This document shows, piece by piece, positions 3,592-41,718 of a DNA stretch of 43,445 nt. The notes below the pieces were generated by a model that did not search any database, was not told the origin of the DNA, and worked only from the letters and a program-made list of their open reading frames with translations. The position numbers were made by a program, and so were the translations under genes. Numbering within the stretch: position 1 is the stretch's first letter; the number at the start of each line of letters is the position of its first letter. Origin of the DNA: Deltaproteobacteria bacterium (GTDB taxonomy: Bacteria; Desulfobacterota; Desulfomonilia; UBA1062); NCBI GenBank assembly GCA_018434685.1, contig JAHDOV010000008.1, positions 1 to 43,445 of the forward strand. The letters are read 5' to 3'.

Positions 3592-5364
3592 TCAGGAGCG
3601 GGAGTCGTGCAGGAATTCCACGATCTCCCGGATATTCACAGCGCTCAGCCCGGGACACCCGGCGAGATCCTCCGGGGTGATCTTCGAGAGGTCCTCGAGG
3701 TGGGAGGTGTGCATGAGCACGGCCCTGGCCTTCTTCGGCCCGATTCCGGGGATGTCTTCCAGTATGGATGATGAGGATTGTGAGCGCAGGTGCTTGTGAT
3801 ATTTCACGGCAAACCGGTGTGCCTCATCCCGTATCCGCTGCAGTGCCCGCAGGGCACCGCTCCGCTCAGGCAGCCTGAGGGGGTCCTTTCTGCCGGGAAC
3901 GAAGAACCTGTCGGTCTTGAGTCCCCGCGCCTTTGCAATGGCCACCACCGGGAGCGTACGCATGTCGAGCTTTTCGAGGACCCGCAGGCAGATACCCAGC
4001 TGTCCCTTGCCGCCGTCTATAACGATGAGGTCGGGTTTCACCTCGTCTGCGGTCAGCCTCCTGGTGAGAACCTGTTCCATCATGGCGAAGTCGTCCTGGC
4101 CGTCGATATCCCTGATCCGGTAGTGGCGGTAGAGGGTCTTGTCCGGTTCGCCCGCGATGAAAACCGCCCTGGATGCCGTGGCATGTGTTCCCTGCAGGTT
4201 CGAGATGTCGTAGCACTCCATGCGGTAGGGTATGGTCGTGAGGTGCAGGCCGCGGGCAATCTCGTCGATGACCGGGGAGGACTCGGTTCCCTTGTAGTAG
4301 TTCCGGGCATTGTCCTGGGCCATGGAGATCCACTGTTTCGGCCGGCCCCTGAGTGCCTTCCTTATGCTGACCGCACTGCCGCGCAGGTCGGACAGGACCT
4401 GTTCGAGCCTGTCTTTTTCCGCAGGGGAGATGTCGGTATAGATTGTCGGCGGGATGAGGGGGTTGCGGAGGTAGAACTGGAGGATACAGCCGGTCATGAA
4501 ATCATCCGGATCGATATCTTTCAGGGTAAAGTTGTTGCTGTCTGTGAGCGTGCCCTTTTCTATATGAAGGACAGCGATCTGAATGTCGCGGTGGTGCGAG
4601 TAGGTGCCGAATATATCGGTGTCGGCAGCGGCATTGCCCACAACGACCTGGGGAACGAGGGTATTCTTTATCGCATGGATCTGGTCGCGTATCCTGGCCG
4701 CCATCTCGTAGTTCTGCCTGGCCGATTCACTCTTCATCCGTGCCTGGAGGTTCTGTTCGAGCTGCCTGTTCTTCCCCTCCAGGAAGGCGATGAGGTCGTG
4801 TACGAGCTGGTCGTAGTGCTCTTTTGATGCCCTGTGGACACAGGGTGCGGTGCACACGCCGATCTGGTGGTAGATGCAGGGACGGGTCCTGTTCTTGAAT
4901 ACCGTATCCTTGCACCTGCGGATGGGGAAGATCCTGCCGAGGGCACTGAGTGTCTTCCTGGTCGCCTGCGCTGAAGAGTAGGGGCCGAAGTAATGCGCGC
5001 CGTCATGAAGTACTTTTCTCGTTATGTATATGCCCGGCCATTGGCTGTTCGTCGTGATCTTGATGCGGACATAGGTCTTGTCATCCTTGAGGTCGATGTT
5101 GAACCTCGGCTTGTGTGCCTTGATCAACTGGTTTTCCAGCAGCAGTGCCTCTGTTTCGTTTCTCGTGATGATGAAATCGATGGTGTGCGTATTGCTGACG
5201 ATGTGCTGTGCGTAGGGGCGGGTGTCTCGGCCAAGGTAGGACTGAAGCCTGGATCTGATATCGTTTGCCTTGCCGACATAGATGATCTGTCCCTGATCGT
5301 TTCTCAGGATGTATACCCCGGTGGAGCGGGGCAGTCTTTCTATGGCTTCGGCAGTCAGACTCAT
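3592..5364 (-). CDS. uvrC: excinuclease ABC subunit C
   Basis: UvrC makes the dual incision in nucleotide excision repair together with UvrA and UvrB. The 590-residue product shows, in order, a GIY-YIG nuclease domain at the N-terminus (GVYILRNDQGQIIYVGKAN), a Cys-rich segment, a UVR helical hairpin around residue 200 (YEMAARIRDQI), the RNase H-like UvrC domain (YDISNLQGTHATAS, LIVIDGGKGQL) and a C-terminal helix-hairpin-helix pair (DIPGIGPKKA, GCPGLSAVNI). Length is normal. ATG at 5364 is preferred because the family N-terminus starts there; a GTG at 5388 would add eight residues. It is divergent from pth and probably leads the minus-strand group with plsB, 90 bp downstream. Confidence 0.96.
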   Translation of the reverse strand: MSLTAEAIERLPRSTGVYILRNDQGQIIYVGKANDIRSRLQSYLGRDTRPYAQHIVSNTHTIDFIITRNETEALLLENQLIKAHKPRFNIDLKDDKTYVRIKITTNSQWPGIYITRKVLHDGAHYFGPYSSAQATRKTLSALGRIFPIRRCKDTVFKNRTRPCIYHQIGVCTAPCVHRASKEHYDQLVHDLIAFLEGKNRQLEQNLQARMKSESARQNYEMAARIRDQIHAIKNTLVPQVVVGNAAADTDIFGTYSHHRDIQIAVLHIEKGTLTDSNNFTLKDIDPDDFMTGCILQFYLRNPLIPPTIYTDISPAEKDRLEQVLSDLRGSAVSIRKALRGRPKQWISMAQDNARNYYKGTESSPVIDEIARGLHLTTIPYRMECYDISNLQGTHATASRAVFIAGEPDKTLYRHYRIRDIDGQDDFAMMEQVLTRRLTADEVKPDLIVIDGGKGQLGICLRVLEKLDMRTLPVVAIAKARGLKTDRFFVPGRKDPLRLPERSGALRALQRIRDEAHRFAVKYHKHLRSQSSSSILEDIPGIGPKKARAVLMHTSHLEDLSKITPEDLAGCPGLSAVNIREIVEFLHDSRS

Positions 5365-6192: not shown

Positions 6193-8193
6193 ATGGAACA
6201 ATGGGCAAATGGGGCAGCAATTTTGGGTATCATCGGGTTTATCATCGCCTTTGCGATGTATCTTTCTCTCAAGAAGAAGGATGCGGGCACTGAAGCGATG
6301 CAGGAACTGGCGCATCAGATTCATGAGGGCGCCATGGTATTCCTCAAAAGGGAATATTCCATTCTTTCAGTTTTCATCATAGTAGTATTTCTTCTGCTCT
6401 GGTTGGCGCCGGGTTTGGGCCTGTACACAGCAATTGCCTACCTCGGTGGTGCTCTCTGCTCGATCGTGGCAGGTTTCACCGGCATGAATTCCGCCACCAT
6501 GGCAAATGTGCGGACCAGCCAGGCTGCAAAAGAGCATGGGCTTGAGGCGGCACTGAACATCTCCTACTTCGGCGGCGGTGCGGTCATGGGTATCGCGGTT
6601 GCCTCCCTTGGACTCATCGGCCTTGGCGTGTTCTACTGGTGGTTTAACGGTGCCGGGATGCTGCAGTACCTGAGCGGTTTCGGTATGGGTGCCTCTTCGG
6701 TCGCACTGTTCGCTCGTGTGGGCGGCGGTATCTATACGAAGACCGCAGACGTTGGCGCAGACCTCGTGGGTAAGGTCGAAGCAGGTATCCCGGAAGACGA
6801 TCCGAGAAACCCCGGTGTTATAGCCGACAACGTGGGCGACAATGTCGGTGATATCGCCGGCATGGGCGCCGATATCTTTGAATCGTATGTCAACTCCATA
6901 ATCGCCTCCATAGCCATTGCCGCCACCATGAGCCTCAGTACGCTGGGATGGCAGGGAGCACAGCAGTCGTACATCGCACTGCCCCTGCTTCTGGCAATGG
7001 TCGGATTCATCTGCTCCCTGGTGGGCGTCTGGTCCGTCAAGGTGTGGGGAAAGATGGGCCCTGCAGAAGCCCTGCGCTATTCAACCATCACCGCAGCCAT
7101 CCTCTTCCTGATCGTCTCCTATGTGCTCGTACGGAGCCTTGGGGTTCAGATGGGCGTGTTCTGGGCGGTGTTCTGGGGCATGATCGCTGGAACCCTCATC
7201 GGTCTCGTAACCGAGTGGTACTGCTCTGGTAAGCCCATCAGGGTCATTGCCGAGGCATCACAGACCGGACCGGCCACCAACATCATCACCGGCCTTGCAA
7301 TCGGTCTGGAATCCACCGCTATTCCGCTCTTCATCATCGTGGTTGCCATCGGCTTTGCATCCTATTTCGCCGGCCTCTACGGCATCGGTCTGTCCGCAGT
7401 CGGTATGCTTGCCACTGTTGGAGCTACCATGAGTGTTGATGCATACGGCCCGGTTGCCGATAATGCAGGCGGCATCTCCGAGATGAGCGGCCTCGGACCG
7501 GAAGTCAGGAAGATCACGGACGAGCTCGACTCCCTCGGCAACACCACCGCTGCCATCGGGAAGGGCTTTGCCATCGGTTCTGCTGCACTGACAGCCCTGG
7601 CGCTGTTCTCGGCATTCGGCCAGGCAGTAGGCCTCCAGTTCATCGACCTGACCAAACCTATGGTCGTTATGGGCCTGTTTATCGGCGGTATTATCCCGTT
7701 CATGGTAGCTGCCATGACCATGACCTCGGTTGGTAAGGCTGCATACAAGATGGTCGAGGAGATCAGGCGTCAGTTCAGAGAGATCCCCGGCATCATGGAA
7801 GGCACAGGGAAGCCGGATTCAGCCAAGTGCGTTGACATCGCGACCAAGGGTGCCCTGTTCGAGATGCTCAAACCCGGCCTTCTGGCTGTCGTCGCCCCGG
7901 TCGCCTGCGGATTCATACTCGGTGCAGAGGCGCTTGGCGGAATGCTGGCCGGTGCCACGCTGACCGGTGCCCTCATGGCGCTGTTCATGGCCAATGCGGG
8001 CGGCGCATGGGACAACGCGAAGAAATTCATCGAAGAAGGCCACTACGGCGGCAAACACAGCGATGCACACAAGGCAGCAGTCGTGGGTGACACAGTCGGC
8101 GATCCGTTCAAAGACACATCAGGTCCGTCTATGAACATCCTGATCAAGCTCATGAGCGTTATCGCACTGGTTATCGCTCCTCTGCTTATCTGA
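6193..8193 (+). CDS. hppA: membrane-bound ion-translocating pyrophosphatase
   Basis: This 666-residue integral membrane protein (about 16 hydrophobic segments) couples hydrolysis of cytoplasmic pyrophosphate to H+ or Na+ export. The substrate loop is intact: [20 protein letters not shown] followed by [15 protein letters not shown], then [16 protein letters not shown], and near the C-terminus [15 protein letters not shown]. The segment [10 protein letters not shown] has Ala where K+-independent enzymes carry Lys, so this should be the K+-dependent subfamily, which contains both Na+ and H+ pumps; the ion cannot be assigned by eye. GGAGG precedes the ATG. With pth it forms a two-gene unit. Such pumps recover energy from biosynthetic PPi in energy-limited anaerobes. 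Confidence 0.97.
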
Positions 8194-20829: not shown

Positions 20830-21708
20830 TCAGAGGAGCACCTCGTAGCCGGCCACGATGTCGAGCAGCTCTTCGGTGATGTTCATCTGGCGCTGCCGGT
20901 GAAACTGGATATGGATCTCCTCAAGGCGCTCGGTGATATTTTTTTCAGCGTTCTGCATTGCAGCGAGTCTGCTGGCATTCTCGCTGGCGAGCGACTCGGC
21001 AAAGGCCTGAAAGAGCGAGGAGAAGAGGTATTCGCGGATGAGCGAGAGGAAGAGGTCGTCCCAGTTCATGGTAAACTGCGGCAGGGTCCTCGATTCCCAT
21101 TTCCTGCCCTTGAGGTTGTCGAGCCATGCCCGGTCAACGGGCAGGAGGTGCAGGGACGTGGGTTTGTAGTTCGAGCCCGAGATGTACTCGTTGTAGTACA
21201 GGAAGATGTGGGTGATCTGCTGAACGAAATGCCACTCCTCCAGGATCATGACGATCTCCTGAACCATGGGCGTGATGCCTGCGATGGATCCCGGGTTGGC
21301 GAGGCATTCGCAGTGACCCTGGCCGGCATCTTCGATATGGTCCCTGATCCGTTCGCCCACGATGAGCACGGTCCGGTCTTCCTTTGACACCTTAAGCCTG
21401 TCCATCTCCTCCAGCGCGTATGCGGCCATCTGGGCGTTGAGCTGCCCGCACAGTCCCTGGTCCGATCCGAATATGATCGCACCGATGCGGGTTATGGGTG
21501 CTGGTCTGGCAAACACCGCTTCGTCCGCCTTCTTGTTCAGTACGACCTGGAGCCCCATTTCCACGGTTCTGCTGTAATCCACGAGCGACTCCACTGCCCG
21601 CTGGTACTGGCGGATGCTCACCGCTGCCAGTGCCTTCATGGTCTTCACCACGGACAGGAGGTCCTGCGTGCTCTTGATCCTTTTCTTCAGGGACTCAATA
21701 GTCTGCAT
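20830..21708 (-). CDS. atpG: N-ATPase gamma subunit
   Basis: The gamma subunit is the central rotor stalk joining F1 to the c-ring. The 292-residue protein has the N-terminal coiled-coil start [20 protein letters not shown] AxxAV-type helix, a central [15 protein letters not shown] segment (family GSDxGLCGxxN), and the C-terminal helix [15 protein letters not shown] leading into [19 protein letters not shown]. It is more divergent from ordinary gamma than from N-type gamma by context. It overlaps atpA by 14 bp and is the last gene of the operon. Confidence 0.93.
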
Positions 21709-23251
21709 CTTCCGCTACCTTGCGGGCACCGATGGCTGCCCCGGCAATCTTGATGATGGTATTGTGGTCGTCCATGGTGAGCTTGCCGCCCGACTCTATC
21801 CTTGCGCAGAGGTCGGCGAGGTGTTTCGTAACGTTGGTGCGGATCTTCAGTTCCTCCTTACCGATCTCGGCTATGGGGACATGGTCCATGACACCAGTGA
21901 TGACGGCCAGCAGGGAGGCGATCTGTTCGGCTGCGGGAATAGGCTTGTACTGGGGCTGTTTCAGGATCTCGCGCACGCGCCACCCGCGTTCGAGTCTCGC
22001 GCGGGTATGCTCGTCGAGTCTGGTGCCGAACCGGGAAAAGCTCTCGAGCTCTTCGAACTGTGAATAGGAGATGCGCAGATCACCGGCCACGGCCCGGTAT
22101 GCCGGCAGCTGTGCCTTGCCGCCAACCCGGGAGACCGATTTGCCCACATCCACCGGCGGCAGGATCCCCTTCTGGAACAATCCCGGAGAGAGGTAGATCT
22201 GACCGTCGGTTATGGAGATGAGGTTCGTGGGGATGTACGACGAGATGTCCTGTGCCTCGGTCTCGATAATGGGCAGTGCGGTGAGAGAGCCGCCCCCGTA
22301 TTCCTTGCGCAGGTGCGTGGAACGCTCGAGGAGGCGCGAATGGATGTAGAAGATATCACCGGGAAAGGCCTCTCTCCCCGGCGGACGGCGGAGCAGGAGG
22401 GACAGCTCCCGGTAGGCCCTGGCATGCCTGGTCAGGTCGTCGTAGACAACGAGCACATCACGGCCCTGGGCCATGAAATACTCACCTATGGAGGTAGCCG
22501 TGTACGGGGCAACGAACTGGAGGCCCGGCGGTTCTTCCCCTGCGGCCACGATAACGATGGTGTAGTCCATGGCATGGTGCTCTTTCAGGGCCGCGATGGT
22601 CTTTGCCACGTCCGAGCTCTGCTTGCTGATGGCGCAGTAGATGCAGATGACGTCCTTGTCGTGCTGGTTTACGATCGTGTCCATGGCTATGGCGGTCTTT
22701 CCGGTCTGGCGGTCTCCCAGGATGAGCTCGCGCTGTCCCCGGCCTATGGGGATGAGGGCGTCTATGGCCTTTATCCCGGTCTGGAGCGGCACCGTGACCG
22801 GGTCGCGGTGCATGATGGGCGGTGCCTCGCGTTCCACCGGCAGGCGATGCACCGTGCTGATCTCTCCAAGGTTGTCCAGGGGCCGGCCGATGGCATCCAC
22901 GACCCGCCCGAGGAGGGCCTCTCCCACCGGGATATCCAGGACCCTCCCGGTGCGGTGCACCTCCGCTCCTGCATTGATCAGTTCGCTCGCGTCGAGCATG
23001 ATAATCCCGGTTTCATCCGGGTCCACGTTAAAGACCATCCCCATGAGGTCGCCGGGGAAACTGACGAGTTCTTCAGACCTGACATTGGACAGACCGCTCA
23101 CCCTGGCGATACCCCTGCCCACATAGTCCACGATGCCCACCTCCTCGGGCTTGAGCTCCTGTTTATGGCCTGAAAGAGCTGCATCCAGCTTCTCGAAGGT
23201 GTCTTCTAGCGAGGTGTTCAGTGCCCCTTCATCTTTGTCAGTGGTCTTCAT
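21695..23251 (-). CDS. atpA: N-ATPase alpha subunit
   Basis: The alpha subunit forms the non-catalytic nucleotide sites of the F1 hexamer. The 518-residue protein has the beta-barrel region, Walker [14 protein letters not shown] upstream of it, [20 protein letters not shown] and the arginine finger [10 protein letters not shown]. It lacks the N-terminal amphipathic helix typical for docking a separate delta subunit, having instead an acidic start ([19 protein letters not shown]), in line with the absence of a delta gene here. A 64-bp gap separates it from atpF. Confidence 0.95.
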
Positions 23252-23315
23252 CCAATGACCCCCTTCATCGTAATTCCTCAGTCCGTCTCAGGGGAGATCC
23301 TACCCGTCGCAGGGC

Positions 23316-24092
23316 TCATGTGCCCGGAAGCGACGGGATCTCCTCCTTGAGCATATGGGAGAATCTCTCCTGAAGCGAATCGATATAGTCATTGATGCTC
23401 CAGGAAAATTTATGGCCATGGACCATCATCTCGATACCTGCCACGAGCACCGGTGAAACCTCGTAGGTGATGGGAATGCCGTCCGCGGTGTACGGAGCGA
23501 GCACCTCCTCTAAAAGGGTACGCTGGGCAGGCGAGAGCTCGAAGGAACTCCTGATGACGATCCCGGTCTCGATGGCGGCGGATTCGCGCAGCAGGCTGAC
23601 CTGGCCCTCATCTGCCTGGCGGATACGCTCCATGAAGACAGTCACTATCCTCTGCTCGAGCCCACCATCGGCCAGGTCAATGAGTATGCGCCGCACAGCG
23701 TCATACACATACGCACCGGAACGCCTGCGGAGGTTCTCCAGGAAGCTTTTCTTTTCCAGGTTCAGCGTCTCGTACCAGCGCTGCTGTACCAGATCCACCT
23801 CCTGGCGGGCCTGTGCCTCGAGTTCACGGCGTGTCTGCTCGGCAGCCTCCCTGGCCTTGTTCAGCATGTCTTCGACCATGTTCTCGAGCGACTGGTTCTT
23901 CTTGTCATAGGCGATGGCCGCATCTTCAGCCTCTTTCCTGAGCCGCTGCGCCTCGTCGAACTGCGAGGCGAGCTTTGTCTGGCGGTCGTCCATGGCCTTG
24001 ATGATCCTGCCGTACAGGAGATACTTGAGCAGGAATACGAGGATCAGGAAGTTGACGATCTGGGCGAAGAATACAAACCAGTCAATATGCAT
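23316..24092 (-). CDS. atpF: N-ATPase b subunit with delta-like C-terminal domain
   Basis: The b subunit is the peripheral stator. The 258-residue protein is far longer than ordinary b (about 156). It has one N-terminal membrane helix (FFAQIVNFLILVFLLKYLLY), a long charged coiled coil (about 35-125, KKNQSLENMVEDMLNKARE), and a C-terminal part (about 165-250) whose ending ITYEVSPVLVAGIEMMVHG and SINDYIDSL resembles the C-terminus of the delta subunit. A fused b-delta stator would explain why no separate delta gene occurs in the operon. The delta-likeness is a by-eye judgement. Confidence 0.9.
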   Translation of the reverse strand: MHIDWFVFFAQIVNFLILVFLLKYLLYGRIIKAMDDRQTKLASQFDEAQRLRKEAEDAAIAYDKKNQSLENMVEDMLNKAREAAEQTRRELEAQARQEVDLVQQRWYETLNLEKKSFLENLRRRSGAYVYDAVRRILIDLADGGLEQRIVTVFMERIRQADEGQVSLLRESAAIETGIVIRSSFELSPAQRTLLEEVLAPYTADGIPITYEVSPVLVAGIEMMVHGHKFSWSINDYIDSLQERFSHMLKEEIPSLPGT

Positions 24093-24098
24093 TCATTA

Positions 24099-24371
24099 TC
24101 ACCCCTTCGTGATCACATGATCCCAGAACGGGTTTGCAAAGATCAGGATCATGGAGATGACAAAACAGTAGATGGCAATGGACTCGATCATGGCCAGGGA
24201 CACAAACAGGGTCCTCGTGATGGAGCCCCTCTCATCGGGCTGCTGGGCAATGGCGCTCAAGGCCTGCTGGGTAGCCCTGCCTTCGCCGAGCGCCGGCCCG
24301 ATCGAGCCTATGGCCATGGTCAGTCCTGCCGTGATGATCGAAGCCATTGCAATGAAGGTTAAACTGTCCAT
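24099..24371 (-). CDS. atpE: N-ATPase c subunit (rotor ring)
   Basis: The c subunit makes the membrane ring that carries the ions. The 90-residue protein has two membrane helices joined by the polar loop QQPDERG. Helix 1 contains the Gly/Ala/Ser packing run GSIGPALGEG with Glu30, and helix 2 has the main carboxylate Glu63 with Ser64 and Tyr68 (IESIAIY). Two glutamates facing one ion site are typical of N-type c subunits; ES and Y resemble Na+ ligands, yet a double carboxylate has also been linked to H+ binding, so the ion is undecided. GAGGAGG precedes the ATG, fitting the high copy number needed. Confidence 0.95.
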   Translation of the reverse strand: MDSLTFIAMASIITAGLTMAIGSIGPALGEGRATQQALSAIAQQPDERGSITRTLFVSLAMIESIAIYCFVISMILIFANPFWDHVITKG

Positions 24372-24417
24372 ATATCCTCCTCTTTCTCTTTGATTTTATC
24401 ATTACCTGTCTTTGTGT

Positions 24418-25119
24418 TCACTTCTCAGTCTTCTCCTCGTGGGCCTGGGTGGCCGAGGCGATATACACCATGGCAAGGATTGCAAAGATGTAGGCCTGGA
24501 CGAGCCCGATCAGCAGCCCCAGGGCATGCATGACAATGGGGAAGAACAACGGGGTGACGGCCAGGAGAATGGCGATGACCTTGTCATGGCTCATCATGTT
24601 TCCGAACAGCCTGACTGCAAGGGCCAGCGTGCGGGTCACTTCGCCCATCACGTGGAAGGGAAAGAAGATGAACGTCGGCTGAAAGTATTCCTTGAAATAC
24701 GAGAGGATGCCCTGTTTCGTGATGCCGTACAGGGGCACGGCGATGAACACGCATACGGCCAGGGCAGCGGTCGTGGTCAGGGAAGAGGTGGGCGCCACGT
24801 AGCCGGGCACGATGAGGAGCACGTTGGAAAGCCCCACAAAGAGGAACAGGCTGCCGATAAAGGCGAGGTAGTGCCCCGGGTCCTCCGGGTTGATTTCTTT
24901 GATCTGGTTCCGGATGGTGGAAACCACCACCTCCAGGACGCCCTGCCAGCGGGTCGTGCGGACATCCGAAGAAAGCCGCCTGGTGACGAGCCACGAGCCC
25001 ATGACCAGGAGCGCCATGATGAACCAGGTATACATCAGGGTTGCCGTGATCCGGATGATTCCCCACTGCCAGAGGATGACCTGATCCGGGCTGATCTGAT
25101 TCAGACTCAGGATCTCCAT
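24418..25119 (-). CDS. atpB: N-ATPase a subunit
   Basis: The a subunit forms the ion half-channels next to the c-ring. The 233-residue protein has about six membrane segments and carries the essential arginine in LALAVRLFGNMMSHD (family LxxRLFxNxxxGH). GQVLEVVV-type helix WQGVLEVVVSTIRNQIKEI fits the conserved region preceding helix 2. I start it at ATG 25119 (MEILSLNQIS), which overlaps the atpR end by 13 bp and has AAGGTG upstream; the longer frame to 25263 reads through atpR in another frame and is not credible. Confidence 0.94.
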   Translation of the reverse strand: MEILSLNQISPDQVILWQWGIIRITATLMYTWFIMALLVMGSWLVTRRLSSDVRTTRWQGVLEVVVSTIRNQIKEINPEDPGHYLAFIGSLFLFVGLSNVLLIVPGYVAPTSSLTTTAALAVCVFIAVPLYGITKQGILSYFKEYFQPTFIFFPFHVMGEVTRTLALAVRLFGNMMSHDKVIAILLAVTPLFFPIVMHALGLLIGLVQAYIFAILAMVYIASATQAHEEKTEK

Positions 25120-25412
25120 GCCTGCACCTTTTGGGGAGCCGCGGGTTGTCTGCCCAGTCGTCGGGTGAGTATCACCCGCATGAGCACAAACCCGAGCAGC
25201 GCGATAACGCAGTGTTCCCATTGTCCGCCCATGACGAGATAAAAGCCCGCCAGCACAACGCACATCCTGACGGCGAGGTTTCTCACCAGGAAAAGAGACG
25301 GGCGGGGTACGTCCGGCAACCTCTGAAGCGTCCGGTAGAGGTTGAGGAAATAAAAGGCACCCAGCGCCATGCCGGCGGGAAATGATAGAATCAGGCCCAG
25401 TGTTTCTCCCAT
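25107..25412 (-). CDS. atpR: N-ATPase AtpR subunit
   Basis: AtpR is a small membrane protein found only in N-type ATPase operons, thought to help assemble the c-ring. The 101-residue product has three predicted membrane helices (about 2-22, 43-63 and 65-85) with arginines at the membrane regions (FLVRNLAVRM, FVLMRVILTRR), as expected from proposed contacts with the c-subunit glutamates. The start at ATG 25412 (MGETLGLILSF) is preferred because AGAAGG lies upstream and the preceding residues of the longer frame are not membrane-like. Assignment relies on operon position between atpQ and atpB plus topology. Confidence 0.87.
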   Translation of the reverse strand: MGETLGLILSFPAGMALGAFYFLNLYRTLQRLPDVPRPSLFLVRNLAVRMCVVLAGFYLVMGGQWEHCVIALLGFVLMRVILTRRLGRQPAAPQKVQAWRS

Positions 25413-25461
25413 GCCTTCTGTCCTTACCAGTCCATCCGTCTTCGCGTGACGGAATATGCCC

Positions 25462-25782
25462 TCATTTCTGTATTCCCCCCTTGCGTACCCAGTACCAGGC
25501 ATTGAGGCAACCCAGCATGAGCCCGCCGATCAGGAGCATGAGGGTCCAGGAAAACTGGCTCGGCCACGACCGGTCTATCCACACCCCCACGGCAACTCCG
25601 ATGAGCGTGGGGATGGCCACCGACCATCCCACCACACCGAACATGCCCAGGCCGAACCAGACCGTTTCGTCTCTTTCCTTTCTGCCTCGTATCTTGAGTG
25701 ACTCCTTCTTTTCCGCCAGTACGCCGAACTTCCTGGCGGCCTCGCGACGCTTATCCTTGGGCGGAATCCTGCATTCGTTCAT
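25462..25782 (-). CDS. atpQ: N-ATPase AtpQ subunit (AtpI/AtpZ-like)
   Basis: The 106-residue protein has a charged N-terminus (KKESLKIRGRKERDE) and two membrane helices: GLGMFGVVGWSVAIPTLIGV with the small-residue pattern GVAVGVWID, then LMLLIGGLMLGCLNAWYWV. This is the layout of AtpI/AtpZ-type accessory proteins, called AtpQ in N-ATPase operons and linked to assembly or divalent-cation transport. It overlaps atpC by 4 bp and lies 49 bp before atpR. Confidence 0.87.
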   Translation of the reverse strand: MNECRIPPKDKRREAARKFGVLAEKKESLKIRGRKERDETVWFGLGMFGVVGWSVAIPTLIGVAVGVWIDRSWPSQFSWTLMLLIGGLMLGCLNAWYWVRKGGIQK

Positions 25783-26165
25783 GTTCTGCTCAACTCCATA
25801 AGGCGCCGTACGAGATCGGCCTCAAGCCGTGCCGCTGCTGTACGGGCAGCCTTTTCCTTGTCATCCAGGACCTTGAACTTCTCCTCCACAACCCCCCTGA
25901 GCTGCCCCAGGTCGGGGATACGGATCACATTCCTGGTGGATACGAACACCTCCTGGCCTTTCTTCACGAGGATGCCCTCATCCACCGCCAGGAACACCTC
26001 CTGGCCTTTTTCGTCCGCATAGGTCAGGAGTCCGGGGACGAGCGCGGCGACGAAATCGATGTGGCGGGGCAGGAGACAGAACGACCCGTTTCCGGCCTCG
26101 GCAACGATCTTTTCCACCTCTTCGTCGAGGAATACCTCTGAGGGTAGCAGCACCTTAAACTTCAT
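25779..26165 (-). CDS. atpC: N-ATPase epsilon subunit
   Basis: The epsilon subunit sits at the foot of gamma and can inhibit ATP hydrolysis. The 128-residue protein contains the beta-sandwich hallmarks MKFKVLLPSEVFLDEEVEKI, GSFCLLPRHIDFVAALVPG (family GxxGLLPxHxxxxxxLxPG) and a helical C-terminus with KEKAARTAAARLEADLVRRL. It follows atpD by 27 bp and overlaps atpQ by 4 bp. Confidence 0.92.
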   Translation of the reverse strand: MKFKVLLPSEVFLDEEVEKIVAEAGNGSFCLLPRHIDFVAALVPGLLTYADEKGQEVFLAVDEGILVKKGQEVFVSTRNVIRIPDLGQLRGVVEEKFKVLDDKEKAARTAAARLEADLVRRLMELSRT

Positions 26166-26192
26166 CCCGGATGACCTCGTACCCTGTCGTGA

Positions 26193-27581
<1,389 letters not shown>

Positions 27582-27887: not shown

Positions 27888-28373
27888 ATGATCTATTCTA
27901 AACTGATACAACTCATCGAGGACAATGCACAGGAGTTGACAAAACGGCTTTGCAACGATCTGCTCAGCAGGGAGGAAACGGCCGGCTACCGGACACTCCG
28001 GGAGGATACGGTCTGTGACCGGGTCTATGATGTGTACAGCAAGCTCGGTTCCTGGCTCAGCAAGGGAAAGGATTCCGTCGAGGTGAAGAAATACTATACC
28101 GAACTCGGCAGGAAACGCTGCAGGGAGGGCATCCCCCTTCACGAGGTGGTCATGGCGTTCATGCTCATCAAGAGACACCTCTGGCTCTACGTGAGGGAAA
28201 AGCAGTTCTTCGATTCCACCTATGAATGCTACCAGGCCCTGGAGATGAACAACAAGGTGGTCCTGTTCTTTGACCGGGCCATCTACTTCACCACCATCGG
28301 CTATGAACAGGAACTGCTCCAGGCCGGTGACAGGGGTGGCGGCCTCTTTTCGAAGGTGTTGAGCAAGAAGTAA
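27888..28373 (+). CDS. helical sensor-like protein, first of a tandem pair (RsbRD-N-like)
   Basis: The 161-residue soluble protein appears entirely helical and matches no enzyme motif. Its pattern (LSREETAGYRTLREDTVCDRV early, then GIPLHEVVMAFMLIKRHLW and NNKVVLFFDRAIYFTTIGYE) resembles the globin-like N-terminal domain of RsbRD-type stress-response sensors and related histidine-kinase N-termini; this is a by-eye match and no output domain is attached. Strong Shine-Dalgarno GGGAGGG. It is about 60% identical to the next gene by hand alignment, so the two arose by duplication. Confidence 0.75.
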   Translation: MIYSKLIQLIEDNAQELTKRLCNDLLSREETAGYRTLREDTVCDRVYDVYSKLGSWLSKGKDSVEVKKYYTELGRKRCREGIPLHEVVMAFMLIKRHLWLYVREKQFFDSTYECYQALEMNNKVVLFFDRAIYFTTIGYEQELLQAGDRGGGLFSKVLSKK

Positions 28374-28490: not shown

Positions 28491-28979
28491 ATGATATCCG
28501 AAAAGATGGTTACCTTGATCAAGGAGAATGCAGACGAACTCGCGAAACGGCTCTGTAAGGACCTGCTCAGCAGGGAGGAAACCAAGAGTTACAGAAAGCT
28601 GAACGAGGACATCGTGTATGAGCGGGTCTTCGACGTGTACAACAGGCTCGATTCATGGCTGCAGAAGGACAAATCCAAGGGCGAGATCCGTGATCACTAC
28701 ATCGCGCTCGGCAAGAAGCGCTTCAGCGAGGGTATACCGCTGACCGAGGTGGTCATGGCGCTCATGCTCATCAAGAGACATTTATGGCTCTACGTGCTCG
28801 AAAAGCATTTCTTCGATTCGTCGTACGAATTTCAGCAGGCCCTGGAGTTCAACAACCGGGTGGTTTTGTTCTTCGACCGGGCCATCTACTTTGCCACCAT
28901 GGGGTACGAGAAAGAGCTGCGAAAGGCGGCTGAAAAGGCTGAAGGCGGGTTTTTCTCGAGGCTGCTCAAGAAGGACTAG
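28491..28979 (+). CDS. helical sensor-like protein, second of a tandem pair
   Basis: This 162-residue protein shares with its neighbour the blocks LLSREET, EGIPLxEVVMAxMLIKRHLW, LYV-EK-FFDS, and VVLFFDRAIYF. The most conserved parts are the middle and C-terminal helices, where KRH, FDRA and GYE invite a role in ligand or partner binding. The N- and C-terminal tails diverge. A GGAGGG ribosome-binding site precedes the ATG. It ends seven bases from the convergent siroheme decarboxylase gene. Function unassigned. Confidence 0.75.
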   Translation: MISEKMVTLIKENADELAKRLCKDLLSREETKSYRKLNEDIVYERVFDVYNRLDSWLQKDKSKGEIRDHYIALGKKRFSEGIPLTEVVMALMLIKRHLWLYVLEKHFFDSSYEFQQALEFNNRVVLFFDRAIYFATMGYEKELRKAAEKAEGGFFSRLLKKD

Positions 28980-38236: not shown

Positions 38237-38908
38237 GTGGTGCCGACGAGAGCCTGGGCGTTTTCCCTCATGAGTCGCAAGGCTATGCCCCGTCATATCG
38301 TATGCCACAGCATGATGGTCAGGCGGGTTGCCGTGGTCATTGCCTCCTCGCTGAAGGAACTGGGCCATGCCATCGATATGCGCATGGTGGACCGGGCGGC
38401 CATGCTCCACGACATCTGCAAGAGCGACTCCATCAGGGCAGGCGGAGATCATGCCCTCATGGGAGAACAGCTGCTTGCCGCATACGGCTATCCGCTCCTG
38501 GGCGATGTTATAGGGCAGCATGTACGGCTGAAATCAATGGAGCTGAACGAGGCCATGATCGTCAACTATGCCGATAAACGTGTGAAGCACGATACGATCG
38601 TATCCGTCTCAACCAGGTTTGTGGATCTGATGGACCGCTATGGCACCGATGAAGCCAGGCAGGACCGCATAATGGGCCATTATCACAACACACTGCGCAT
38701 CGAGAATATCGTGTTCGAGGGTGTGCCGATCGATCCGGAATGGCTCAATGCCCTAAATCTGGTACCGGGAGATTACCCGCTCTATGGAGGAGATGGTATC
38801 CTGGGAGAGCACGGCCCGGTTGAACAGCAGAACCAGGACATGGATCTTGAACGGGTATATGAGGACCAGCCGGTTCTGGTCGATGAACGAGACCTTCTTC
38901 GGGGTTGA
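38237..38908 (+). CDS. HD-domain phosphohydrolase, C-terminus overlapping the next gene
   Basis: The core is a metal-dependent HD hydrolase: His24 (CHSMMVRR), His58-Asp59 (LHDICK), GGDHALMGEQLL and QHVRL, then YADKRV with the distal Asp. HD proteins of this size act on nucleotides or phosphorylated small molecules; the substrate is unknown. It starts at GTG 38237, 4 bp after lptD. The typical domain ends near residue 172; the last 50 residues are translated from 38753-38908, which is antisense to the C-terminus of the opposite response-regulator gene, so the tail is probably not a conserved domain. I keep it because no earlier stop exists. Confidence 0.78.
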   Translation: MVPTRAWAFSLMSRKAMPRHIVCHSMMVRRVAVVIASSLKELGHAIDMRMVDRAAMLHDICKSDSIRAGGDHALMGEQLLAAYGYPLLGDVIGQHVRLKSMELNEAMIVNYADKRVKHDTIVSVSTRFVDLMDRYGTDEARQDRIMGHYHNTLRIENIVFEGVPIDPEWLNALNLVPGDYPLYGGDGILGEHGPVEQQNQDMDLERVYEDQPVLVDERDLLRG

Positions 38909-39823
38909 GGGCAACAGCTGGCCGAGATTCTCCGAGAGGTCGAGGAAGAACTTCGTCACGTAGGGCATGTCGATGTCGCCGGCGATGGTGCCGGTCTGGT
39001 AGAGTACCTCGTTGTCGGCACTGATGACGGCAATTCCGGTGCATTCGTTGAGCGAGGAGATATTCTTCACCACGATGCGGGTGGACTCGTCGATGGGGGC
39101 GAGGTCTCTCTCGTCGATCTCTCCCTTTTCGAGTGCCATGCTCATTTCATCTGCCTTGCGCATTCCCTCTATGAGAAGGTATTCCCAGTTGGTGTTGATC
39201 GTTACTGCAGGGGCCTTTATCCCGCCGACGAACCGGAAGCTGCCGCTCGACCATGACAGGATGGTGAAGAGTGCTTCTTCGCCCTCTATGGCACCGATCT
39301 GGGCATGGGTTATCTGTCCGTCTTCGAAAAAGATGCACCCCTCTCTCTGGTCCTTGCGCACGTAGAGCGCCGTGGTGACCTGGGACAGGCAGTTCATCTG
39401 GATAAGATCCGGCAGCTGGAGCCCGGTAATGCTGCCATTGAATCCCTTGACCGTGTCTTCGCGCAGTGCCTTGAGGATGAGCTCACGCAACTGGTTTATC
39501 TCGAAGGGTTTCTCGAGGTAATACAGAGATCCGCGCGCCTTTGCCTTTGCCTTGATATCCGACGAGCCGTACGCGGTCATGATGATGACCTTGGTGGCGG
39601 GTTTTTCTTCCTTGATCTTCATGAGGACGTCCAGGCCGCTGATTCCGGGCAGGCGGATATCGAGCACGACGAGGTCGAAGCTGTCTTTCCGCACAAGAGA
39701 CAGCGCGGTCTCTCCGTCGTTGGCAGTGGTCAGCTCATAGACCTCCCGGTCCTGGGTGAGCGATTTTGCCAGGGACCAGGTGAGGGTTTCTTCGTCATCG
39801 ACCAGTAAAACGTGCTTGGGCAT
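38753..39823 (-). CDS. response regulator with PATAN (DUF4388) and roadblock-like domains
   Basis: The 356-residue protein begins with a receiver domain (1-120): acidic pair Asp9-Asp10, phospho-acceptor Asp55 (VVLDIRLPG), Thr83 and Lys105 (EKPFE) are all present. A PATAN/DUF4388 domain (about 125-230; GSITGLQLPDLIQM, IFFEDGQITHAQ) follows, and a C-terminal roadblock/LC7-like segment (about 240-350; GIAVISADNEVLYQTG, VLVLLFNRAV). No DNA-binding or enzymatic output is visible. ATG 39823 is chosen because the receiver core starts there; a longer frame to 39892 runs into the upstream gene. It is last of a four-gene operon; its 3' end overlaps the HD gene by 156 bp. Confidence 0.87.
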   Translation of the reverse strand: MPKHVLLVDDEETLTWSLAKSLTQDREVYELTTANDGETALSLVRKDSFDLVVLDIRLPGISGLDVLMKIKEEKPATKVIIMTAYGSSDIKAKAKARGSLYYLEKPFEINQLRELILKALREDTVKGFNGSITGLQLPDLIQMNCLSQVTTALYVRKDQREGCIFFEDGQITHAQIGAIEGEEALFTILSWSSGSFRFVGGIKAPAVTINTNWEYLLIEGMRKADEMSMALEKGEIDERDLAPIDESTRIVVKNISSLNECTGIAVISADNEVLYQTGTIAGDIDMPYVTKFFLDLSENLGQLLPSTPKKVSFIDQNRLVLIYPFKIHVLVLLFNRAVLSQDTISSIERVISRYQI

Positions 39824-39824
39824 C

Positions 39825-40574
39825 CTATTTTCCCCCGAGTCTTTCCAGTGCCATGACCAGCGAGGTCCTGAGCCGGAAAAATGAGTCGGCAATCCTGTTA
39901 TAGGCCTTCCCTCTGGCTCTCGGGATTTCAGCGTCGAAGTTTCCGAGACTCAGCTGTTCGAAGGCTGAAATAATCATCTTCGTTGGTTTGGTGACAATGG
40001 AAGAGACAACAAGGGCAATGACGAAAGAGAGTGCCAGTCCTGCAGCGAGGTAAATGAGCAGCAGGGTTGTCGTGGAGGCGATCTTGGTGCTCAGCTGTGA
40101 GTTCTGCTCGCCGATGAGGCCCTTTTCCCATGATCGCGGCTTGAATCCCAGCAGGGATCTCTTGCCGTCGAGCGGCATGACAGCGACCATGTAGGTCTCG
40201 GTCTGCACAGTCGCGGGCTTCTTGTTCTTTATTGCATCGATTATCCCGGACGCCTGGTCCAGAAGTTCCGGCACCTTGTACATCATGAGCCCGGTGTGGG
40301 CTTTGCTGGTGGACGAGCCGATAACCAGTGACTCGTTGTCCACCACCATGATCTCGGCCCATGAAGCGGGAAGGGGGGCCTTGTCGAGTGCATCGACATC
40401 GATGCTCCTGAGCGACCAGGACAGGATGGTCGTGTTTTCTGTGTAGAGCTTGTTCTCCAGTGCCTGCAGGTTGATGCCGTGCAGGGTCTGGAGCTGGGTA
40501 TACAGCAGAAAAGCCGAACCAATGACCACCATGATGAGTGCGGTGAATACGACGGTAAATATCTTGAGTTTCAT
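39825..40574 (-). CDS. membrane HAMP-domain protein without kinase
   Basis: The 249-residue protein has an N-terminal membrane helix (about 5-25), a periplasmic domain of about 140 residues, a second membrane helix (about 171-195) and a cytoplasmic HAMP domain (about 190-245; VTKPTKMIISAFEQLSLGNF then RARGKAYNRIADSF). It ends directly after HAMP, so no histidine kinase or methyl-accepting domain is attached, and the signal must pass to another protein, perhaps the products of the adjacent genes. It begins 7 bp after the PATAN gene and stops 1 bp before the response-regulator gene. Confidence 0.82.
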   Translation of the reverse strand: MKLKIFTVVFTALIMVVIGSAFLLYTQLQTLHGINLQALENKLYTENTTILSWSLRSIDVDALDKAPLPASWAEIMVVDNESLVIGSSTSKAHTGLMMYKVPELLDQASGIIDAIKNKKPATVQTETYMVAVMPLDGKRSLLGFKPRSWEKGLIGEQNSQLSTKIASTTTLLLIYLAAGLALSFVIALVVSSIVTKPTKMIISAFEQLSLGNFDAEIPRARGKAYNRIADSFFRLRTSLVMALERLGGK

Positions 40575-40581
40575 GTCCTGA

Positions 40582-41391
40582 TCACTCCTCTCCGTGCAGC
40601 CATTCTGTCATGGTATCCAGGAACTTCAGCGACATCCCCTCGTCGGGTATCTTGCTGGAGAGCGTCTCGATCAGCGCCGAACGCTGTCCGACATCCTCGG
40701 AGAGGAGATCGACATTCAATTCCTGTGCGGTCTCGACGATGATGAACGGAGCGACAGGTCCTATGGCCCTGGTGAGGTCCTCTTTCAGGGCATCGATAAA
40801 CGCTGTCTCCGGCAGTTCGATTCCCAGGGGTGTGATCTCTGTTTCCACCGAAAATTCAGCATCCCGCAGGAGCCCGAGCTTCAAGAGGGTGTAGAAGACC
40901 TTCATGGCATCGGAGACCCCCAGGCCGATGTTCTGGGCGATTGCGGCAATGGAGCGTTTTCCGTTGATATTGGCCAGCACCTTCCACTGGATGGATTTGA
41001 GGTTGATTTCCTTTTCCCTGATGTCGGGGTCCAGGGAATAGATGACCGAGCTCGACGGGATGAGCGTAGTGATCCGGTCCATCTGGCGGATGCGGTTGGC
41101 GGATTCCGCCAGGATATCTTCCATGGAGATATCCACGCTGATAACGTCGGGGGTTTCGTCCACGAAAAACCGGTAGTCTCCCGAGGACCATACGGTCAGT
41201 TCGTACACCGCCTTGGTGCCCTGGAGCTGCCCGCACTGTGCGTGGATGATCTGGCCGTCTCTGAAAAAGATATTGCCGGTCTCGGAACCATTATTCAGGA
41301 GCAGCCTCCCCGAGCGTTTGCCCAGGGAGAGAATCTTGATTATTTCCGGACAGCGAGTGTTTTCCAACCCCCCACTGATATCCTGATTCAT
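40582..41391 (-). CDS. PATAN (DUF4388) protein with helical C-terminal domain
   Basis: The 269-residue soluble protein has an N-terminal PATAN/DUF4388 domain (about 8-100; RSGRLLLNNGSETGNIFFRD, IIHAQCGQLQGTKAVYEL), a middle helical, winged-helix-like region (about 125-180; SIAAIAQNIGLGVSDAMKVF) and a C-terminal part (about 195-265) containing FIDALKEDLTRAIGPVAPFI, a pattern shared with C-terminal domains of other PATAN proteins. No catalytic motif is seen. It starts immediately after the stop of the roadblock-like gene (TAGATG) and lies in the four-gene operon. Confidence 0.82.
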   Translation of the reverse strand: MNQDISGGLENTRCPEIIKILSLGKRSGRLLLNNGSETGNIFFRDGQIIHAQCGQLQGTKAVYELTVWSSGDYRFFVDETPDVISVDISMEDILAESANRIRQMDRITTLIPSSSVIYSLDPDIREKEINLKSIQWKVLANINGKRSIAAIAQNIGLGVSDAMKVFYTLLKLGLLRDAEFSVETEITPLGIELPETAFIDALKEDLTRAIGPVAPFIIVETAQELNVDLLSEDVGQRSALIETLSSKIPDEGMSLKFLDTMTEWLHGEE

Positions 41392-41718
41392 CTATCTTGT
41401 CTCCTTCGCAATATTCGCTAAAACGAGTTTGCCGGTCATCCGCAGCAGGGCAAGGTTGACCCGTGTGCTCGACATGACCATCATCATGGTCAACCCGCTT
41501 ATGAATATCGTTAATACCATGTCTTCCAGGAATATCTCAACAACATTGCCCGGTCTGTTCCTGGCGGATACAAGACTGTCGTAGAGCATCTTGATGTTGT
41601 TCTTAGCGCCTGAAAACTTATGTTTCGAGGGAAGTTTGATCTGAACATTCTTCTCTCGCACGATAGCATACCCATGGACGCCTGAAACCTTGAGAAGATC
41701 TTTAATCGTGCCCTTCAT
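41392..41718 (-). CDS. small roadblock/LC7-like protein
   Basis: The 108-residue protein has the order expected for a roadblock fold: helix, VSGVHGYAIV, helix (NNIKMLYDSLVSARNR), VVEIFLEDMVLTIFI and a final VNLALLRMTGKL helix. Such domains dimerise and, in MglB, regulate the GTPase MglA; no GTPase gene is present here. I start it at ATG 41718 (MKGTIKDLLK) rather than at 41751. Assignment is by pattern and is moderate. It is the first gene of the operon. Confidence 0.68.
   Translation of the reverse strand: MKGTIKDLLKVSGVHGYAIVREKNVQIKLPSKHKFSGAKNNIKMLYDSLVSARNRPGNVVEIFLEDMVLTIFISGLTMMMVMSSTRVNLALLRMTGKLVLANIAKETR

Follow-up and report, generated by a model that had tools for sequence, protein, structure and literature searches.

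A conserved operon of a kinase-less HAMP receptor, PATAN proteins and roadblock-fold proteins, and its possible place in an MglA-type GTPase circuit

The four genes referred to as A, B, C and D, located in the window (the whole stretch of 43,445 nucleotides of a Deltaproteobacteria bacterium that was analysed), constitute a real conserved operon. We lean towards reading it as the branch for sensing, with its adaptors, of a circuit of an MglA-type small GTPase, the GTPase being now encoded elsewhere and the likeliest output being the motor of the type IV pilus. The genes and their noteworthy parts are as follows.

41392..41718, minus strand: gene A, an ORF for a 108-aa stand-alone protein of the roadblock fold; the first gene of the operon
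40582..41391, minus strand: gene B, with PATAN/DUF4388 (residues 6–103), a winged-helix-like middle part (about 119–195) and a C-terminal IGPxAP domain (about 196–269)
41083..41376, minus strand: PATAN domain of B (DUF4388, 65.2 bits in the whole-genome search)
39825..40574, minus strand: gene C, with TM1, a periplasmic domain of about 135 aa, TM2 and HAMP; no transmitter
38753..39823, minus strand: gene D, with a receiver (residues 5–116), PATAN (130–227) and a tail of the roadblock fold (about 246–353)
39659..39661, minus strand: codon of Asp55, the phospho-acceptor of the receiver of D (codon 55 from the ATG at 39823)
39143..39436, minus strand: PATAN domain of D (DUF4388, 81.9 bits in the whole-genome search)
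38270..38908, plus strand: HD-domain neighbour gene (Pfam HD, 5.1e-7), outside the A-B-C-D system; it runs tail to tail into gene D, with an overlap of 156 bp

The original prediction had regarded the four genes as a single unit, and its coordinates proved exact: all of them lie on the minus strand, and the gaps of A/B, B/C and C/D are 0, 7 and 1 bp, respectively. It had also proposed a search for co-occurrence of the four genes in other genomes. The intact A-B-C-D order was found in 20 of the 24 genomes of the family to which the window belongs (its own genome and 19 others), and thus the arrangement is not a product of chance. In one genome of the family, A and D are lost together, while B and C are retained. 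Neither HisKA nor HATPase was found in genes A–D with Pfam and NCBIfam, and Pfam detected no GTPase within the operon.

Protein C has two transmembrane-like stretches (residues 1–28 and 164–198, by hydropathy) and ends about 50 residues past TM2. C itself stays below the Pfam threshold for HAMP. The stretch after TM2 is matched by the HAMP portions of NCBIfam kinase models; in distant C proteins, one of which carries Pfam HAMP (1.5e-16), the TM2-HAMP part is matched by the profile of C; and the motif at the HAMP end is conserved. The distant C orthologues are Cache-HAMP proteins, likewise without a kinase. Judging from these sequence characteristics, C is a predicted membrane HAMP receptor whose chain ends right past HAMP without a kinase, in agreement with the original description of a receptor lacking a transmitter.

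The domains of D are clear in Pfam for the receiver (REC, 2.5e-26) and for PATAN/DUF4388 (3.5e-22). The PATAN/DUF4388 domain of B (1.4e-17) is the only domain of that protein over the Pfam cut-off, and both of the PATAN domains anticipated by the original prediction are hence verified. The residues D9, D10, D55, T83 and K105 are present in D and invariant across 20 orthologues, in which more than 100 positions of the protein are invariant. The receiver, for which an intact Asp55 had been noted, is accordingly predicted to be phosphorylatable.

The roadblock assignments for A and the D tail were upheld in one respect and not in another. In the searches with the window's own proteins, neither of them had a Pfam match, Robl_LC7 included; a local profile comparison with MglB-like proteins failed, and the PDB profiles built from the family members only gave no roadblock assignment. 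The assignment was rescued by the model of A, the predicted topology of the D tail, bridging homologues and D orthologues passing Robl_LC7. The AlphaFold model of A (pLDDT 78) has the element order alpha-beta-beta-alpha-beta-beta-beta-alpha, which is that of the roadblock fold; the Foldseek matches of this model were roadblock proteins, and its comparison with M. xanthus MglB gave a VIA Z of 11.3. The bridged profile of A matches the Robl_LC7 chain 7f8m (0.0014), and one A orthologue reached 21.4 bits relative to the Pfam Robl_LC7 cut-off of 23. As for the D tail, its orthologues in other families exceed this cut-off (1.6e-13, 3.9e-7 and 4e-6), and its predicted model shows the roadblock element order with pLDDT mostly 50–81, while the PATAN part of the D model is poor (pLDDT about 30). 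The match list of Foldseek with the full D model was filled by receivers, and is therefore uninformative on the tail.

The genomic contexts of the homologues outside the family provide the main clue to the function. Across the phylum, B occurs together with the GTPase in about 18 of 23 genomes, the background outside the family being 208 of 383; these figures are too confounded by relatedness to be relied on, and physical linkage was used instead. A point against the favoured reading is that in G048, G177, G270 and G348, a good B homologue was present and the GTPase was not detected. An MglA-like GTPase lies within 2 kb of the D orthologue in 14 of 18 genomes, covering five families. Canonical MglB usually adjoins MglA, and occurs between the D orthologue and MglA wherever the locus was read; CheW-like genes are also found at these loci. 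In f12 and f95, A, B and D (plus C where present) are clustered with MglB/MglA, and in f73 they occur with MglB, followed by a masked stretch. By this linkage, the full module consists of a kinase-less receptor, PATAN/roadblock adaptors and MglB/MglA. The original prediction had taken the lack of a GTPase as the nature of the system, and this claim is not supported. It had itself named a GTPase or a kinase in a fixed position of homologous operons as evidence against it; for the GTPase, such evidence was found, and for a kinase to a limited extent: a PAS histidine kinase directly precedes D in f22, and one lies downstream of it in f9. In the latter, the gene order is MglA-CheW-kinase-NtrC, followed by pilM and pilN, and in f39 and f62, genes for PilB-type ATPases are within the same cluster. 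The presence of pilM/pilN or a PilB motor gene beside the module in some lineages points to type IV pili.

Within the family of the window, an MglA-like GTPase is encoded exactly once in 21 of the 24 genomes and twice in one genome. The window's genome has a single one, at a separate locus (G000:C47), and also has a cluster of PilB/PilT/PilC-like genes, which is consistent with the original suggestion that an MglA-like GTPase and a motility machine might be encoded outside the operon. The family's GTPase is extended by about 100 residues, and is found at another conserved locus in nearly every genome, with TPR, TPR-membrane and PATAN genes as its neighbours. In this family, no pilus gene adjoins the operon, and none could be identified at the locus of the GTPase. 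Canonical MglB was found in none of the 24 genomes, whereas the same profile was positive in 6 of 6 other genomes used as controls. It looks as if the lineage transferred the GTPase to another locus, or has a substitute for it there, and lost its usual partner, MglB. A tree of 40 GTPases places that of the family in a separate clade with a long branch, and so does not establish it by orthology as the operon's displaced partner. The TPR proteins beside it are only 25–33% identical to those beside the other loci.

Based on these contexts, the operon may work as follows; we infer the signal, the kinase, the pilus output and every physical contact, and action by protein contact, as originally proposed, is supported as a reading. 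Binding of a periplasmic signal by C would change the state of the HAMP coiled coil, and the HAMP end of this enzyme-less protein would offer a surface on which a partner docks, the simplest candidate being its constant neighbour B. Asp55 of D would be phosphorylated by a histidine kinase encoded elsewhere. The roadblock protein A and the D tail would dimerise, with themselves or with each other, bind the MglA-like GTPase, and substitute for the canonical MglB absent from the family. The state would then be relayed to PilB by way of the PATAN domains and of the TPR proteins encoded next to the GTPase, and pilus extension would be altered. A bolder form of this scheme is put forward tentatively: in this Syntrophales-like lineage, an MglA-type GTPase operates without MglB, a pair of divergent roadblock proteins, of which one is a fusion with a receiver and PATAN, having replaced the GAP, and one operon couples a kinase-less periplasmic receptor and a phosphorelay directly to the polarity switch of the GTPase.

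Control of the pilus by PATAN independently of the GTPase, in which phosphorylated D binds PilB directly, after the proposal made for the cyanobacterial PATAN regulator PixE, A, B and C tune D, and the GTPase belongs to a separate system, seems unlikely. PATAN-CheY regulators do act on the pili of Synechocystis, with a reported PixE–PilB1 interaction (PMC7690835), the pilus motor genes exist in the window's genome, and the clade of the family's GTPase is distinct; however, the ties of the D orthologues with MglB/MglA in five families argue against this reading, which also leaves two roadblock domains without partners. Another reading is membrane-controlled transcription, in which C regulates B, the winged helix of B binds DNA and the other proteins are adaptors. 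The original statement that no DNA-binding domain is present became doubtful, since residues about 119–195 of B weakly match the winged helices of MarR/SlyA (0.0036–0.19, PDB). This middle part is probably a winged-helix domain, judging from the profile matches, and it had been overlooked. B is conserved at full length within the family and also in about 23 genomes beyond it, and in f62 and genomes related to it, this region persists together with the C-terminal domain as a short protein that stands alone. Nevertheless, even the best match is weak, the linked genes are those for the GTPase, the GAP and the pilus, and the winged-helix fold also serves protein contact; we consider regulation of transcription quite improbable. 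A module of envelope stress for the adjoining lptD/HD/gmhA genes would suit the conservation of this neighbourhood across the whole family, but these neighbours lie on the opposite strand and differ in other families, so that the linkage looks like inherited synteny; this reading is very improbable, and a service to lptD was rejected on account of the differing neighbours. Finally, the view of the operon as a decaying remnant of an MglA module that lost its GTPase, which the disappearance of MglB/MglA from the locus and the joint loss of A and D in one genome might suggest, is hardly credible and was rejected on the conservation of D, given the four intact frames in 20 genomes, the many invariant positions and the retention of all the receiver residues. 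Taken together, the observation underlying the original prediction was confirmed, and its interpretation was partly supported.

The favoured reading, a branch of an MglA-type circuit, has counterparts among known systems. The MglA/MglB/RomR module of M. xanthus likewise combines a small GTPase, roadblock proteins and a receiver protein that does not belong to a normal two-component pair; its output is type IV pili, the presumed output here, and its MglA works together with the TPR protein SgmX (PMC11580455). In contrast to that module, the family of the window has no canonical MglB and a GTPase about 100 residues longer that is encoded elsewhere, and the operon contains a kinase-less HAMP receptor, PATAN proteins and a receiver-PATAN-roadblock fusion. 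The actinobacterial conservons cvnABCD (AGPS; PMC13343842 and PMC4316618) are operons for a membrane HAMP protein, a roadblock protein, a third adaptor and a small GTPase, all of which have counterparts in the present system. The differences are that C, ending past HAMP, lacks the kinase/ATPase part of the CvnA type, that the adaptor is a PATAN-winged helix protein rather than CvnC, that a receiver is present, and that the GTPase is outside the operon; neither CvnC nor CvnD was found there (in Pfam, B had only DUF4388, and no GTPase was detected). In cyanobacterial phototaxis, the PATAN-CheY regulators PixE, PixG and LsiR also carry REC and PATAN in one protein and are linked to type IV pili (PMC7690835), while D has an additional roadblock tail and its orthologues show linkage to both MglB/MglA and a HAMP receptor. 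With the classical two-component system, the operon shares a phosphorylatable receiver (D), but the histidine kinase is missing. The occurrence of PATAN genes in the vicinity of MglA of groups 1 and 5 was reported previously (Wuichet and Sogaard-Andersen 2014; Makarova 2006), and the PATAN-MglA-MglB neighbourhood is thus already known (PMC4316618). In the available portion of that source, there is no description of A-B-C-D as a unit, of the HAMP receptor without a kinase, of the split loci or of the loss of MglB.

PATAN/DUF4388 is widespread yet nearly unstudied. The homologous loci suggest that it serves as an adaptor linking MglA-type GTPases with membrane receptors and receivers, probably in connection with the type IV pilus. 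Two questions become testable here: whether a HAMP receptor can signal without any enzyme, and whether MglA can function without MglB. The family of the window is a clean natural case for both, together with the one genome that lacks A and D jointly.

The four genes of the operon are arranged as follows.

41718-41392, minus strand: gene A, roadblock-fold protein
41391-40582, minus strand: gene B, PATAN domain (DUF4388) by Pfam
40574-39825, minus strand: gene C, two transmembrane-like stretches, then a HAMP-like end
39823-38753, minus strand: gene D, receiver and PATAN domain (DUF4388) by Pfam

The spacings A-B, B-C and C-D are 0, 7 and 1 bp; the four minus-strand genes and their gaps are exactly those of the original prediction. 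Behind its second transmembrane-like stretch, C aligns with the HAMP part of models for kinases (e.g., WalK), and it terminates there with no further domain. The receiver residues D9, D10, D55, T83 and K105 of D are all in place and are invariant among 20 orthologues. The 3′ end of D overlaps an opposite-strand HD-domain gene tail-to-tail by 156 bp (38753-38908); this overlap was found again in relatives in a shorter form, with the final residues of D kept. Residues 119-195 of B match MarR and SlyA chains (E 0.0036-0.19), and in family f62 of the same phylum this region and the C-terminal domain form a free 157-aa protein. Thus, although the operon had been described as having no DNA-binding domain, B possibly carries one putative winged helix.

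The assignment of A and the D tail to the roadblock fold, a test that the original prediction had to pass, failed on their own sequences but was rescued by other evidence. In profile searches, the window's own A and D tail gave no Pfam match, and no match to MglB-like proteins was found by profile comparison. However, in an AlphaFold model of A (pLDDT 78) the elements follow the roadblock order, Foldseek with this model returned roadblock proteins, and a structural aligner gave Z 11.3 against Myxococcus xanthus MglB, with similar values for other roadblock chains. The predicted structure of the D tail shows the same element order, the orthologous D tails in f22 and f95 pass the Robl_LC7 Pfam cut-off (1.6e-13, 4e-6 and 3.9e-7), and an A profile bridged via f12, f95, f73 and f39 has roadblock chains as its top PDB matches. 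Since longins and profilins also reach Z near 10 against the A model, the function is not decided by the fold alone.

The order A-B-C-D is kept in 20 of the 24 genomes of the window's family, the window included, and neighbouring genes are −4 to 14 bp apart; this count includes one genome (G016) in which two contigs share the operon. In two further genomes the operon is truncated by contig ends, in G008 (97% complete) B and C are kept and A and D are lost, and in G004 (77% complete) no part was found. The flanks, lptD-HD and w41724-gmhA, are constant across the family, indicating that the locus was inherited in place. Mean column identity is highest for D (80%) and lowest for C (55%). The named relatives are MAGs, e.g., Syntrophaceae bacterium UBA1062. 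Elsewhere in the window, we noted by eye a membrane pyrophosphatase gene (6193-8193) and minus-strand ATP synthase genes (20830-27569; atpD first, atpA-atpG last), whose order recalls N-type ATPases. Tandem paralogues of about 160 aa each (27888-28373 and 28491-28979), with no assigned function, are both kept in relatives.

Other families of the phylum carry homologous loci in which the parts missing from the window can be seen. In f12 and f95, the cluster order is A, B, C, D, canonical MglB, MglA-like GTPase and CheW-like protein, C being a Cache-HAMP protein without a kinase; at one f12 locus (L105), the stretch from B to D showed no frame for C. The f73 cluster reaches MglB, and a masked or gap stretch (a run of N near 3638-3955 of locus L112, genome G418) follows right at the place expected for the GTPase. 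The order differs in f39, where MglB-MglA-CheW-like-PATAN precedes A, B and C, and in f9 the module lies in two places, B-C being apart from D-MglB-MglA-CheW-like. The GTPases were identified by Ras/Arf Pfam matches, the roadblock protein by Robl_LC7 (2.2e-11) and the MglB NCBIfam model (1.5e-20, under that model's cut-off), the C protein by HAMP (1.5e-16) and dCache_2 (3e-8), and the CheW-like protein by CheW (3e-6 in one case, just below the cut-off in another). Other families contribute 18 strong D orthologues (E about 1e-90 or better; f15 was excluded, its GTPase positions not being listed). Of these, 14 lie within 2 kb of an MglA-like GTPase, and they belong to five families (f9, f12, f22, f73 and f95). 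In two of the remaining four, MglB adjoins D, with a contig end or masked stretch beyond.

Within the window's family, one MglA-like GTPase each was found in 21 of the 24 genomes, two in G008 and none in two genomes of 77-82% completeness. This GTPase is extended by about 100 residues, and the genes around it form the conserved cluster TPR - GTPase - TPR-membrane - PATAN. The second GTPase of G008 (L060, L157), the genome without A and D, is divergent and clustered with several receiver and histidine kinase genes. Canonical MglB was found by profile search in none of the 24 genomes, while the same profile was positive in 6 of 6 control genomes. Because the family GTPases form one clade on a long branch, the tree is compatible both with a GTPase that moved out of the operon and with replacement of the old one. 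The fourth DUF4388 match of the window's genome (L069:7504-8841, contig C32) seems, by reading, to combine PATAN-like, J-domain-like and TPR parts.

Several clusters are linked to type IV pili. In that of f9, the next genes encode a PAS histidine kinase, an NtrC-type regulator, PilM (2.3e-83) and PilN (3.1e-14), and those of f39 and f62 include a PilB-type ATPase that carries MshEN and TPR parts (T2SSE 4e-125 and 5e-119). PilB-type ATPases with TPR repeats before MshEN lie inside GTPase-module clusters at L124:11454-13787, L129:1222-3615 and L131:286-2715. A PilB/PilT/PilC-like set is present on contig C40 of the window's genome, PilC by reading only. There are published precedents: in M. xanthus, PilB is brought to the pole by MglA and the TPR protein SgmX (PMC11580455), and cyanobacterial pili are acted on by PATAN-CheY proteins, PixE reportedly via PilB1 (PMC7690835).

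PATAN genes near MglB/MglA had already been noted in 2006 and 2014 (passages of PMC4316618); in a literature search mostly without subscription journals, neither the kinase-less receptor operon nor the split form was found described. In its working, the operon would resemble an MglA polarity module or a conservon. It does not qualify as either, since the locus holds neither the GTPase nor MglB and the receptor is without the kinase part. The domains, their conservation and their linkage were observed; the contacts, the signal, the kinase and the output are inferred, and the most economical scheme with a role for every part is as follows. C would be the sensor, its HAMP end may serve as the docking place for an adaptor, and D would provide the phosphorylation input. 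The roadblock proteins, standing in for MglB, would transmit the state to the GTPase, and the PATAN/TPR proteins would hand it on to the pilus motor.
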